Assembly: GCA_004570425.1 (NCBI GenBank)
Contig: SPQJ01000008.1
Location: 1-64,000 of the forward strand
Direction: 5' to 3'
DNA length: 64,000 nucleotides
Origin: Bacillus sp. AZ43
Lineage (GTDB): Bacteria; Actinomycetota; Actinomycetes; Mycobacteriales; Geodermatophilaceae
The position numbers were made by a program, and so were the translations under genes. The notes under the pieces are model-generated. The model was not told the origin of the DNA. It did not search any database and worked only from the letters and a program-made list of their open reading frames with translations. Below are positions 60,099 to 64,000 of this stretch, piece after piece (position 1 is the first letter of the stretch; the number at the start of each line of letters is the position of its first letter).

Positions 60099-60142
60099 GA
60101 TCCGTTCCCCCGCTCCCCGCACGCCTTCCCCGAATGACGTCG

Positions 60143-60148
60143 AGCATA
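60143..60148 (-). promoter_or_regulatory. -10 box TATGCT of membrane protein gene
   Basis: On the minus strand TATGCT lies about 45 nt upstream of GTG 60098, giving a short leader with GGGGGAAC. Confidence 0.45.
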
Positions 60149-60262
60149 GGAACGGCCTCGCCGGGGCGCGCCGCCGAAGGTTGGGGATGCGTCCTCGCGG
60201 TGTCCCTGCCGGCTGAGAGGATCGGGCGAGCACGTCGGTCGGAACGAGGAAGAGGGGGTCCG

Positions 60263-62290
60263 GTGCCGCAGATTGCATCCGTCGGCCGGGCCGCGGAACC
60301 GGACTCCAGGGCGGAGCACGTCCTGGCCGCCCTGGACGACGAGCAGCGCGCCGCGGCGAGCGCCGTCACCGGCCCGGTCTGCATCCTGGCCGGTGCCGGG
60401 ACGGGCAAGACCCGCACGATCACCCACCGGATCGCCTACGGCGTCCACTCGGGCGTCTACGTCCCCGAGCAGGTCCTGGCGGTCACCTTCACCGCCCGGG
60501 CCGCGGGGGAGCTGCGCGGCCGGCTCGCGGCGCTCGACGTCGGCGGCGTGCAGGCGCGGACCTTCCACGCCGCGGCGATGCGCCAGCTGCGCTACTTCGC
60601 CCCCCGCGTGCTCGGCGGCCCGATGCCGGCGCTCATCGAGAACAAGCTCCGCGTGGTGGCCACGGCGGCGGCGCGCAACCGGCTCACCACCGACCGCACC
60701 AGCCTGCGCGACCTGGCCAGCGAGATCGAGTGGGCCAAGACCACGCTGGCGACCCCCGACGACTACCCGGCCCGGGCCCGGGCGGCCGGCCGGGAGCCGC
60801 CGTTCGACGCCGCCGCGGTCGCCGCCGTGTACGCCAGCTACGAGCAGGCAAAGCAGCGCGACGGGGCACTCGACTTCGAGGACCTGCTGCTGGTCACCGC
60901 CTACGCCATCGAGGAGCACCCGGCGGTGGCCCGCGAGGTGCGGGCGCAGTACCGGCACTTCGTCGTCGACGAGTACCAGGACGTCAACCCGCTGCAGCAG
61001 CGGCTGCTCGACGCGTGGCTGGGCGGGCGGGCCGAGGTCTGCGTCGTCGGGGACCCGAACCAGACGATCTACTCGTTCACCGGCGCCGACCCCGACTACC
61101 TGCTCGGCTTCGCCGACCGCTATCCCGACGCCACCGTGGTCAAGCTCGAGCGCGACTACCGGTCCACGCCGCAGGTGGTGGGCCTGGCCAACCGGCTGAT
61201 CGGCCAGGCCCCGAAGCGCAAGGGGCTGCCGGGTCTGCGCCTGCTGGGCCAGCGGCCCGATGCCGGCGAGCCGACGTTCGTCGAGCACCCCGACGAGCCG
61301 GCCGAGGCGGCGGCGGTCGCCGCGAGGTGCAAGGCGCTGATCGAGTCCGGGATGCCGGCCGCCGAGATCGCCGTCCTGTTCCGGATCAACGCCCAGTCGC
61401 AGGTGTACGAGGCCGCGCTCGCCGACGTCGGCGTGCCCTACGTCCTCAAGGGCGGTGAGCGCTTCTTCGAGCGGCCCGAGGTCCGGGAGGCCGTGCTCCT
61501 GCTGCGCGGGGCGGCGGCCGGCGGGACCGAGCCCGGTGCCCTCGTGCCCACGGTCCGCGACGTGCTCGCCTCGGTCGGGTGGGCCGAGCACCGCCCGCCC
61601 GCCGGCGGCGCGGCCCGCGACCGCTGGCAGTCGCTGGCCGCGCTGGTCGACCTCGCCGTCGACCTGGTGGCGGAGAACCCGTCGCTCGACCTCGCCGGGT
61701 TCGTCGACCACCTGGCCGAGCGGGCCAACGCCCAGCACGCCCCGACCGTGCAGGGCGTGACGCTCGCGTCGATGCACGCGGCCAAGGGCCTGGAGTGGGA
61801 CGTCGTCTTCGTCGTCGGCCTGGTCGACGGGGTCGTCCCGATCGCGCAGTCGCTCTCCCGCCCCGACGCGGTGGAGGAGGAGCGCCGGCTGCTCTACGTC
61901 GCGATCACCCGGGCCCGCGAGCAGCTGTCGCTGTCCTGGTCGCTCGGCCGCAACCCGGGGGCCAAGCGCGCCCGGCCGCGCAGCCGCTTCCTCGACGGGC
62001 TCGCCCCCGGCTCGGGCCCGACGGCACCGGTCGCCCGACGTCCCGCCAAGCGCCCGAAGGTCGTGCTCGAGGGCGAGGCGGGGGAACTGTTCGAACGGCT
62101 GAGGGCGTGGCGCAGCCAGACGGCGCAGTCGGCGTCGGTCCCGGCGTACGTCGTCTTCACCGACGCGACGCTGCAGGCCATCGCCGAGACGCGCCCCTCG
62201 ACGATGCGCGAGCTCTCCGGGCTGCCCGGCATCGGGGCGCGCAAGCTCGACCTGTACGGCGCCGACGTCCTGGCCGCGATCAACGGCTGA
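60263..62290 (+). CDS. uvrD2: DNA helicase UvrD2, HRDC form without tetracysteine module
   Basis: The 675-aa superfamily 1 helicase has Walker A AGAGTGKTRTI (about 44-54), Walker B VVDEYQDVNPLQ, NQTIYSFTGADP and LASMHAAKGLEWDVV. A C-terminal HRDC domain (about 630-675) ends SGLPGIGARKLDLYGADVLA. Mycobacterial UvrD2 has a four-cysteine module between helicase and HRDC; here that segment reads RRPAKRPKVVLEGEAGELFE with no cysteine. GTG 60263 follows GAGGAAGAGGGGG. It lies directly before the whiB7 leader. Confidence 0.93.
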   Translation: MPQIASVGRAAEPDSRAEHVLAALDDEQRAAASAVTGPVCILAGAGTGKTRTITHRIAYGVHSGVYVPEQVLAVTFTARAAGELRGRLAALDVGGVQARTFHAAAMRQLRYFAPRVLGGPMPALIENKLRVVATAAARNRLTTDRTSLRDLASEIEWAKTTLATPDDYPARARAAGREPPFDAAAVAAVYASYEQAKQRDGALDFEDLLLVTAYAIEEHPAVAREVRAQYRHFVVDEYQDVNPLQQRLLDAWLGGRAEVCVVGDPNQTIYSFTGADPDYLLGFADRYPDATVVKLERDYRSTPQVVGLANRLIGQAPKRKGLPGLRLLGQRPDAGEPTFVEHPDEPAEAAAVAARCKALIESGMPAAEIAVLFRINAQSQVYEAALADVGVPYVLKGGERFFERPEVREAVLLLRGAAAGGTEPGALVPTVRDVLASVGWAEHRPPAGGAARDRWQSLAALVDLAVDLVAENPSLDLAGFVDHLAERANAQHAPTVQGVTLASMHAAKGLEWDVVFVVGLVDGVVPIAQSLSRPDAVEEERRLLYVAITRAREQLSLSWSLGRNPGAKRARPRSRFLDGLAPGSGPTAPVARRPAKRPKVVLEGEAGELFERLRAWRSQTAQSASVPAYVVFTDATLQAIAETRPSTMRELSGLPGIGARKLDLYGADVLAAING

Positions 62291-62343
62291 CAGCGAACCG
62301 ACCCCGCGTCCGAACCTCGTGACACGTTCTGAGGAACTCGCGG

Positions 62344-62382
62344 TTAATTCGATTGACCCCTTCTCCGGGCGGGCCATAGTGT
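62344..62382 (+). promoter_or_regulatory. WhiB7-type promoter of whiB7 leader
   Basis: TTAATT (62344-62349) is followed by exactly 3 bp, then -35 TTGACC (62353-62358), an 18-bp spacer and -10 TAGTGT (62377-62382). WhiB7-activated promoters are known to carry an AT-rich element 3 bp upstream of the -35, contacted by the WhiB7 AT-hook. Transcription would begin near 62389, about 500 nt before whiB7. Confidence 0.8.
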
Positions 62383-62459
62383 CCTCTCACACACGCGAGA
62401 CACCCCCGCGTCCCCGGCCGTCCGGCCGGGGTGCGAGACCGAGGAAGGAGGGGGTTCCT

Positions 62460-62747
62460 GTGATCACCACGAAGCTGACGATGGCCCCCGCCGATCTCCT
62501 CGGCCTGGGCCTCGACGTGCGCCCGGCCTACGGCCCGGGCCTGTGCAGCGGCACCGAGTTCACGGCGGTGCACACGGCTGCGCCCACCGCTCCGCTCCAG
62601 GGGACCGGTCTGCCCACCGGCGGCACCGCTGTCCGCCTGCGCCCCGCCACCCGTCGGCCCCTCGGCGCCGTCGTCGTGACGAAGACCTTCATCGAGAACA
62701 ACGGCACCACCCTCGGGATCCACTCCTCGAGGAGACCGCAGAGCTAA
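62460..62747 (+). CDS. Leader ORF upstream of whiB7, 95 codons
   Basis: GTG 62460 follows AAGGAGGGGG. The frame runs 95 codons to TAA 62747 with strong G/C third-position bias, so it is probably translated. The product starts ITTKLTMAPADLLGLGLDVR and ends FIENNGTTLGIHSSRRPQS; no known family is recognised. A 12-bp palindrome CTCCTCGAGGAG lies near its 3' end (62723-62734). It stops 22 nt before an intrinsic terminator, placing ribosome progress in position to control read-through into whiB7. In mycobacteria the whiB7 leader also carries an upstream ORF, but a shorter one. Confidence 0.7.
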   Translation: MITTKLTMAPADLLGLGLDVRPAYGPGLCSGTEFTAVHTAAPTAPLQGTGLPTGGTAVRLRPATRRPLGAVVVTKTFIENNGTTLGIHSSRRPQS

Positions 62748-62768
62748 GCGCTCGACCGGTCCTCCACG

Positions 62769-62813
62769 AGGCCGCGGAACCCGAACCCGGGATCCGCGGC
62801 CTTTCTCTTTTCT
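62769..62813 (+). terminator. Intrinsic terminator/attenuator in the whiB7 leader
   Basis: Perfect 10-bp arms AGGCCGCGGA (62769-62778) and TCCGCGGCCT (62793-62802) with a 14-nt loop are followed by a T-rich run TTCTCTTTTCT. It lies between the leader ORF and whiB7 on the coding strand, the usual place for conditional termination. Confidence 0.85.
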
Positions 62814-62892
62814 CCGCGAACCCGGCACACCGACCCATCGGTCGGCGGGCCCCCGCCGGCCGTCGCAGAGACGAGAACGAGGAGGAGCGGCA

Positions 62893-63234
62893 GTGCAGCA
62901 GACGATCGACCGCCCGACGTCCCACCGCCGACCCGGGCTCCCCTGGACCGGCGGACTGCCCCCGAGACGACCCACGCCACTGGCCCCCGCGCCGGTGCGG
63001 CGCCCCCTGCCGTGCCGGGAGGGGGACTCCGAGCTGTGGTTCGCCGAGAGCCCCGCACAGCTGGAGCAGGCCAAGGCCCTGTGCGGCAGCTGCCCGATCC
63101 GCAACGCCTGCCTGGCCGGCGCCCTGGACCGGGGGGAGCCCTGGGGCGTCTGGGGCGGCGAGATCTTCGACCGCGGTGTCGTCATCGCGCGCAAGCGGCC
63201 GCGGGGCCGTCCCCGCAAGGTCGTCGCCGCGTGA
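62893..63234 (+). CDS. whiB7: Transcriptional activator WhiB7
   Basis: The 113-aa iron-sulfur protein activates intrinsic antibiotic resistance genes with SigA. Four cysteine ligands are seen (LPCREGD, then LCGSCPIRNACL), then the Wbl turn GVWGGEIFD and a C-terminal AT-hook KRPRGRPRK that distinguishes WhiB7 from other Wbl proteins. The N-terminal Pro/Arg-rich extension (about 1-38) is longer than in mycobacteria. GTG 62893 follows GAGGAGGAGCGG. The gene sits between uvrD2 and the ABC1 kinase, the conserved whiB7 position. Confidence 0.95.
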   Translation: MQQTIDRPTSHRRPGLPWTGGLPPRRPTPLAPAPVRRPLPCREGDSELWFAESPAQLEQAKALCGSCPIRNACLAGALDRGEPWGVWGGEIFDRGVVIARKRPRGRPRKVVAA

Positions 63235-63305
63235 TGACCGAACGCATCCACATCGACCGGTCCCGACTCATCGGAGCGGGACCCACCACTTCCGAAGGAC
63301 ATGCC

Positions 63306-63470
63306 ATGTACATGCTCGAACACGATCTGGCCCGCAGCCGGATGGACGAGATGCACGCCGAGGCCGCCGCGGCCTCCCGTGCCCGTCGGCTGTACCTGGC
63401 CCGCCGCGCGGCTCGCCGCGCGGAGCGCGCGGTCCGCCGCGCCGCCCGGGCCAGCGCCGCCGTCTACTAA
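63306..63470 (+). CDS. Small basic helical protein downstream of whiB7
   Basis: The 54-aa product (MYMLEHDLARSRMDEMHAEA through ARASAAVY) is one long Arg/Ala-rich helix with strong coding bias. ATG 63306 has GAAGGA 7 nt upstream; an alternative ATG at 63234 overlaps the whiB7 stop (TGATG) and would add 24 residues. Similar small ORFs follow wbl genes or stand alone in actinobacteria in my recollection, but no function is known. The net positive charge suggests contact with nucleic acid or membrane. Confidence 0.65.
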   Translation: MYMLEHDLARSRMDEMHAEAAAASRARRLYLARRAARRAERAVRRAARASAAVY

Positions 63471-63473
63471 GAG

Positions 63474-63527
63474 GACCCCGTCCTCCTCACCCCTCGCTCC
63501 GCTCGGGGCGAGCCTCTGGACGGGGCC
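63474..63527. repeat. Structured intergenic repeat, copy C
   Basis: GACCCCGTCC and GGACGGGGCC form the outer arms. The inside holds CTCACC, CCTCGCTCCGCTCGGG and GGGCGAGCCTC. It begins 3 bp after the stop codon of the small ORF and closely matches copy A after secA. Confidence 0.75.
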
Positions 63528-63546
63528 GCCGCTCCAGCACGTCACC

Positions 63547-63587
63547 AGGCCGGTTCGGACGCTTCCCGAGGGCGTCCGGACCGGCCT
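63547..63587. terminator. Long hairpin before the ABC1 kinase stop
   Basis: Arms 63547-63562 and 63572-63587 are complementary at 15 of 16 positions (one G-T wobble) with a 9-nt loop. It separates the convergent small ORF and ABC1 kinase. Confidence 0.7.
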
Positions 63588-63596
63588 CGTCCCCGT

Positions 63597-64000
63597 TCAG
63601 TCCACGAAGCCGGGGAGCCACTCCTCGAGGACGCTGCGGAAGTCGCCCGCGGCGTCGAGCTGGCAGAGGACACCGATCGACCCGATGGTCACCCGGTGGA
63701 TGAGCAGGTAGGCGGGGGGCAGGTTCAGCTGCCGGCCGAGCCGGCTGGCGTCGTTGCGGGGGTCGGCGATCCGGGCCGCCTGCTCCTGCATCCAGGCGCG
63801 GGTGAAGTGGAAGTGCCGGTCGACCACCGGGTCCAGCAGCGGCCGCAGGTACTCCAGGACGCCCTGGGCGTCGACCTCCACGTTGGGCCGCACGAAGCCC
63901 TCGGCGCGCAGGTCGGCGAGCACCTCGTCGGCCTTGCCGGCCAGCGCCCAGCGCAGCAACCGGCCGATCGGCTCGGGGTGCCCGTCGGGCAGCCGTGCCG
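63597..64000 (-). CDS. ABC1/AarF/UbiB family kinase-like protein, C-terminal part
   Basis: The gene runs off the right edge. The visible C-terminal 134 residues include RLPDGHPEPIGRLLRWALAG, VDAQGVLEYLRPLLDPVVDR, FHFTRAWMQEQAARIADP and RVTIGSIGVLCQLDAAGDFR, and end EEWLPGFVD. This matches the C-terminal region of the ABC1 kinase that neighbours whiB7 in mycobacteria (Rv3197 from memory). ABC1 kinases are atypical kinases or ATPases linked to quinone or lipid biology. The catalytic core lies outside the window. Confidence 0.85.
   Translation of the reverse strand, partial: ARLPDGHPEPIGRLLRWALAGKADEVLADLRAEGFVRPNVEVDAQGVLEYLRPLLDPVVDRHFHFTRAWMQEQAARIADPRNDASRLGRQLNLPPAYLLIHRVTIGSIGVLCQLDAAGDFRSVLEEWLPGFVD

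Follow-up and report, generated by a model that had tools for sequence, protein, structure and literature searches.

A probable uORF-controlled transcription attenuator ahead of whiB7 in the Geodermatophilaceae, with two conserved features inside its uORF

What governs the transcription of whiB7 in Bacillus sp. AZ43, a soil bacterium that the GTDB lineage places in the Geodermatophilaceae? We addressed this question in a window of 64,000 nucleotides, the whole stretch of DNA that was analyzed (contig SPQJ01000008.1, positions 1 to 64,000 of the forward strand), by comparing the leader of the gene with those of its relatives. We propose, with a probability of roughly 0.88, that the leader is a uORF-controlled transcription attenuator of the whiB7/wblC type, i.e. 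a Geodermatophilaceae example of a mechanism that is already known. This estimate applies to the explanation as a whole, for which comparison supplies the anatomy, the reading frame and the antiterminator pairing, and from which we infer a drug-dependent read-through, a ribosome stall at an Arg-Leu-Arg (RLR) motif and a pause of RNA polymerase.

The whiB7 gene, its surroundings and its promoter

The gene at 62893..63234 (+ strand) codes for a protein of 113 aa with a WhiB domain (Pfam PF02467, Whib, 6.4e-16) and a C-terminal RGRPRK AT-hook-like motif, which scores 16.2 bits with the AT_hook model, under the cut-off of 17.4. It is the best among six WhiB-like matches in its own genome, its closest named relatives are those of Blastococcus and Geodermatophilus and, as judged by similarity, it is a WhiB7 orthologue. 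With an E cut-off of 1e-25, whiB7 was recovered in 107 of the 112 genomes of the family, its own included, and 103 leaders were taken for comparison. Two near-complete family genomes, G072 (98%) and G074 (95%), yielded none at that cut-off, and the gene may have been lost or have diverged in them. On one side of whiB7 in the window lies a gene for a helicase of the UvrD type that also has an HRDC domain (60134..62290), and on the other an ORF on the opposite strand (63597..63998) whose product resembles an ABC1/AarF-type kinase by look; this helicase-whiB7-kinase order may correspond to the mycobacterial uvrD2-whiB7-Rv3197 order. An Arg/Ala-rich ORF of 54 codons (63306..63470) is situated just 3' of whiB7, and had a tblastn match (E up to 1e-5) in 9 of 270 loci, many of which end too early to judge.

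The leader opens with a WhiB7/WblC-type promoter (62344..62382, + strand), in which inspection of the sequence places TTAATT at 62344..62349, followed after 3 bp by the -35 box TTGACC (62353..62358) and, after a further 18 bp, by the -10 box TAGTGT (62377..62382). A promoter scan of 61500..64000 returned one promoter-like site, as against 0.0 +/- 0.1 in shuffles, with the identical -35 but a shifted -10 (CATAGT, spacer 16). Within the family, 90 of the 103 leaders possess a TTGAC-type -35, and in 87 of these 90 at least 5 of the 6 positions in the block 3 bp upstream are A/T; 10 further leaders combine a TTGC-type -35 with a similar AT-rich block, and the promoter block is present in 97 of the 103 in total. 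The binding site of WblC in Streptomyces, GAAAWY, is reported to lie 3 nt upstream of the -35 (PMC7157823), which is the position held here by the AT-rich block TTAATT with different letters; hence, the promoter fits autoregulation by position and not through its exact letters. In ten of the 103 leaders the promoter, start, stop or frame departs from the rule or cannot be assessed (L008, L127, L130, L162, L172, L173, L174, L184, L185 and L186).

An earlier note, made from the sequence alone, had recognized a WhiB7-type promoter here; the location of the boxes and the retention of the promoter block in the family bear this out. The coordinates that it gave for the promoter, a 95-codon GTG ORF, the hairpin and whiB7 were confirmed by a check of the sequence, and only its spacings needed revision, the distance from stop to stem being 20 nt rather than 22 and that from stem to whiB7 being 89 nt rather than about 80. 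A search of Rfam at E up to 1 yielded no family for the whiB7 leader, the sole weak match (E 0.42) falling elsewhere in the window, at 63717..63773. From the sequence comparisons, it is the conservation across Geodermatophilaceae that most strongly supports the leader being real.

A translated uORF and a choice between two RNA structures

Downstream of the promoter, a strong Shine-Dalgarno site (AAGGAGGGGG, 62445..62454, + strand) precedes a putative regulatory uORF (62460..62747, + strand) that begins with GTG at 62460 and extends over 95 codons to TAA at 62745-62747. In the other leaders of the family, a uORF start was accepted only where a Shine-Dalgarno-like site lay within a fixed search range, and a stop only at a conserved GAGC/GGGC-stop motif, a procedure by which 7 of 102 leaders were unscorable and 95 were scored. 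In all but one of these 95 (L162), start and stop are a multiple of three nucleotides apart, and frame 0 is open and the +1 frame closed in each of the remaining 94. As this frame is kept in 94 of 95 leaders across 44 distinct lengths, we consider it very likely that the uORF is translated. The preservation of the start-to-stop distance as a multiple of three also led us to drop a +1 frameshift at the mid-uORF element described below.

The uORFs of the family range from 57 to 134 codons, the start call of the shortest (L175) being doubtful. In a wider set, 137 loci with a uORF call under the same Shine-Dalgarno rule, the median is 78 codons; six Mycobacterium/Mycolicibacterium-titled loci span 55-81 codons, three from Rhodococcus 54-56, and eight of nine from Nocardia 104-120, the ninth being called at 24. 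Against these figures the 95 codons of the present uORF, which had earlier been deemed unusually long, are ordinary, and the further suggestion that so long an ORF might entail a different sensing mechanism finds no support.

An intrinsic terminator with a T-rich tail follows the uORF at 62768..62815 (+ strand). Its stem (62768-62803) comprises 10 perfect pairs, an outer G-U pair, an A.A mismatch and 4 inner pairs, and its predicted fold of -31.1 kcal/mol (z -6.2) was equalled in 0 of 200 shuffles. A simple terminator scan reported 0 sites and missed this hairpin, the T-tract of which is interrupted. The terminator arm AGGCCGCGG is found upstream of whiB7 in 102 of the 103 family leaders, the exception, L008, being cut by the end of its contig; across 100 family leaders the terminator is paired in 98.7% of cells and, being nearly invariant, it furnishes no compensatory changes. 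Further downstream, between the terminator and the Shine-Dalgarno site of whiB7, an alignment of 39 leaders displays a conserved GC-rich pair of inverted repeats at 62830-62859 (CCGAC..GGTCGG and CGGCGGG..CCGCCGG), which could be a second layer of control or an RNA-stability element.

The 5' arm of the terminator can alternatively pair with the 3' end of the uORF, the two forming the outer arms of a single nested stem, the predicted antiterminator (62713..62784, + strand), in whose apical loop the uORF stop codon is located. In the absence of the terminator 3' arm this structure folds at -40.3 kcal/mol (z -4.7); once that arm is present, the terminator outcompetes it in folding. Across 100 family leaders the antiterminator forms in 84.1% of cells, versus 29-56% in slid controls. 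Within the family, in an alignment where one clade is offset by a base, its outer pair has UA-to-CG changes in 29 sequences, which reflect few events, and further pair types amount to 20 versus 22.0 in shuffles, i.e. no excess. At 120 loci outside the family, the pairing of a uORF end with the terminator arm of its own locus (matched) is on average 2.8 kcal/mol more favorable than that with the arm of another locus (mismatched), a gain that 0 of 2000 permutations equalled, relatedness among the loci being only partly removed; a segment 60 nt further upstream, taken as a control at 113 loci, has no such gap (matched -17.93 versus mismatched -18.14). Likewise, matched pairs rank among the best 5% of partners at 22 of 120 loci, and at 5 of 113 in the control. 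As read from these comparisons, the outer pairing of the antiterminator covaries outside the family and is mutually exclusive with the terminator.

The uORF peptide is for the most part free to vary in sequence and length between genera, and the parts that persist, by eye, are the N terminus, an 18-nt element, a motif of the form Arg/Lys-X-Arg/Lys (+X+) and an RNA-constrained C terminus. The C termini are lineage-specific and alike within lineages (e.g. GIHSPGRPLS, STPGDLPPEDPLS, AWSPPV and RSRHRSRLR), as one would predict were the RNA arm to set the peptide sequence; a reading of them as the product of another frame was rejected, the RNA arm having shifted by one base with the frame unchanged. 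One might suppose from the conserved frame and the length of 95 codons that the uORF and whiB7 are co-transcribed genes, the former for a small protein with a function of its own, and that the terminator is an ordinary one. We regard this as most improbable: searches of Pfam and NCBIfam at E up to 1 matched nothing to the product, few of its parts persist and its length in the family is elastic, and its C terminus differs where the RNA arm is displaced by a base.

We favor instead the attenuator, and envisage its working as follows. WhiB7, together with the housekeeping sigma factor, would activate whiB7's own promoter, and ribosomes would load on the uORF behind RNA polymerase. Where the uORF is completed, the terminating ribosome in the antiterminator loop would hold the antiterminator open, the terminator would form and transcription would stop ahead of whiB7. 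Where ribosomes fall short of the stop codon, on account of a ribosome-targeting drug or a missing aminoacyl-tRNA, the 3' end of the uORF would pair with the 5' arm of the terminator, and whiB7 would be transcribed past the antiterminator so formed. Drug-dependent read-through is thus the predicted behavior of the leader in Bacillus sp. AZ43.

Attenuation of whiB7/wblC mediated by a uORF has been described (PMC11550727, PMC4128351, PMC7157823, PMC12121999, PMC13236596, PMC13393426), and is credited to Burian and Thompson 2018 and to Lee, Lee and Roe 2022 (cited in PMC11550727, PMC12121999, PMC13393426). The described system shares with the present one the gene, a promoter whose WhiB7/WblC site is 3 nt upstream of the -35, a uORF, an intrinsic terminator, and an antiterminator that is freed on failed uORF translation; it differs in sequence and host family, and the available parts of these sources make no mention of the RLR motif or the 18-nt element. 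Termination under uORF control, with read-through when translation of the leader fails, had also been the central suggestion of the earlier note, and it gains support both here and from the mechanism described for whiB7/wblC (PMC11550727, PMC12121999, PMC7157823, PMC13393426).

Two conserved features inside the uORF

Comparison of the leader ORF across Geodermatophilaceae, which had been put forward as a check, did uncover both a conserved peptide and a conserved nucleotide element. The peptide is the RLR motif, an instance of +X+, at codons 59-61 of the window's uORF (62634..62642, + strand), a candidate site of macrolide/ketolide arrest. With the last 14 residues excluded, RLR occurs in 57 of 94 family uORFs, where shuffles average about 2, and +X+ in 88 of 94, where shuffles give about 31, none being present in the other 6. 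When 35 gene-like ORFs of the window are cut into segments of matching length, RLR is seen in 8% of these and +X+ in 53%. Clustering at 70% identity leaves the RLR enrichment in place (35 of 59 versus 1.4); at 50% and 40% global identity too few sequences remained. At the motif the third bases vary (CGC 25, CGG 19, CGT 13; CTC 29, CTG 28), and this variation of the wobble bases with the amino acids constant points to selection on the peptide. The signal is weaker outside the family, with RLR in 14 of 120 uORFs (2.4 in shuffles) and +X+ in 83 of 120 (44.6). The Arg-rich +2 frame is itself mildly enriched in RLR (54 of 94 versus 34 in shuffles), which calls for caution as to composition.

RLR is known as the arrest motif of the ErmDL leader peptide (PMC8298421), in which its codons are reported to be those where macrolide- or ketolide-bound ribosomes stop; it is at residues 6-8 there, as opposed to residues 59-61 of 95 here, the candidate arrest site. 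An RLR-bearing uORF also governs hflXr by attenuation in the hflXr/rli80 leader of Listeria monocytogenes, which resembles ours further in its terminator/antiterminator switch and its drug-resistance output, although its uORF has 14 codons, its host is a Firmicute and its gene is a different one (PMC6310831). We posit that the conserved RLR would act as a macrolide/ketolide arrest site in the whiB7 uORF: a ribosome stopped at codons 59-61 would be 34 codons before the stop, and hence would leave the antiterminator free.

A simpler account would have the uORF serve as a general sensor of translational coupling, in which any failure of translation leads to read-through and the peptide, RLR included, senses nothing and just reflects an Arg-rich and GC-rich sequence. 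This is a serious contender, to which we give slightly less than an even chance: whiB7/wblC is reported to answer many unrelated drugs as well as amino acid starvation, and the greater part of the peptide does vary freely between genera in both sequence and length. It sits poorly, however, with the excess of RLR over residue shuffles and over the ORF segments of the window, with the changing wobble bases beneath constant amino acids, and with the surplus of +X+ beyond the family.

The second feature is a conserved mid-uORF nucleotide element, CAGGGGACCGGTCTGCCC (62598..62615, + strand), a candidate programmed pause site of RNA polymerase. Its pattern, CAGGGSACCNGTNTGYCC, recurs mid-uORF in several lineages, and the only exact match to it in the own genome is that at 62598-62615. 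Bases were counted in 70 instances located through the peptide alone, 45 from the family and 25 from elsewhere. Codon 4 ends in T in 69 of them (background 7% and 13%) and codon 5 ends in G in all 70; since codon 4 may encode Gly, Arg, Ser, Ala or Thr, the fixation of these third bases indicates conservation of the nucleotides beyond that of the peptide. A QGTGLP motif considered as a peptide-level signal was replaced on these grounds, and the idea that translation might also start internally, at the element's NTG codon, was dropped because CTG prevails there (53 of 70). With a 1% shuffle threshold, a matrix trained outside the family recognizes the element in 73 of the 94 uORFs of the family, without exception in frame 0; the converse search, from the family outward, finds it in 33 of 118 uORFs, 32 of them in frame 0, with Nocardia among the lineages. 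This constant frame could instead speak for a role at the level of codons or peptide.

The consensus elemental pause is reported to have G at -10, a pyrimidine at -1 and G at +1 (PMC10268239), with which G5, T14 and G15 of the element align, in a register that we picked ourselves and to a consensus that is weak. Antibiotic-responsive attenuators with a NusG-dependent polymerase pause are found in the tlrB and vmlR leaders of Bacillus subtilis, the tlrB pause allowing time for translation of the leader peptide and the vmlR pause being regulatory (PMC12288461). The pause motif of these leaders is T-rich (TTNTTT) and was demonstrated experimentally (PMC12288461), whereas the element here is GC-rich and its role is a conjecture. 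As a working hypothesis, the 18-nt element would make the polymerase pause and so give the ribosome time to catch up.

The element might alternatively pair with the attenuator as an anti-antiterminator. The window's copy could form 9 bp with GACCGGTCC in the 3' strand of the antiterminator, with a duplex z of -2.5 for the window's own leader and a mean of -1.1 in 32 family leaders, but in 29 further loci (5 of them named Geodermatophilaceae) the mean z is -0.25 even though the element is nearly the same. Element-attenuator pairing as a general rule was rejected on this last value, and we consider this alternative to the polymerase pause improbable.

Spread across the class and implications

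A covariance model built from the leader RNA only was used to scan 296 genomes of the class, the own one included, at E up to 0.01, and matched in at least 175 of them, in 79 of 115 genera; this count is a lower bound because the filters of the class scan are stricter. In another family of the same order (f2), at least 20 genomes were without a match and one had it. Among 83 loci sampled from the matches (29 + 54), every one has a WhiB7 homologue, 45-75% identical, directly downstream on the same strand, the distance from the RNA match to the start of the WhiB7 match being -3 to 306 nt (median 112). Thus, the model locates whiB7 attenuators by RNA alone.

The attenuation of whiB7/wblC has been described; the roles that we assign to the two sub-features conserved within the uORF are predictions. 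The available parts of the literature searched (including PMC4974804, with Lee 2022 outside it) contain no mention of the RLR motif and the 18-nt element in a whiB7 uORF. A 2025 paper describes ribosome stalling within the whiB7 uORF as still untested (PMC12121999), and one from 2026 names stalling inside the uORF as the inducer, with no stall codons given in the part available (PMC13236596). The RLR codons and the 18-nt element supply exact positions, and this renders the question of stalling directly testable.

We tentatively advance, as a proposal with the odds somewhat against it, that the whiB7 uORF in many actinomycetes is a two-part cassette for timing and sensing. In it, the 18-nt pause would hold the polymerase until the ribosome catches up and, elsewhere in the same frame, a +X+ peptide would in many lineages, often as RLR in Geodermatophilaceae, arrest macrolide- or ketolide-bound ribosomes. 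In actinobacteria, whiB7 underlies intrinsic resistance to many of the drugs that target the ribosome; if the uORF does operate as such a cassette, then a broad sensor of translation would carry within it a dedicated and sensitive input for macrolides.
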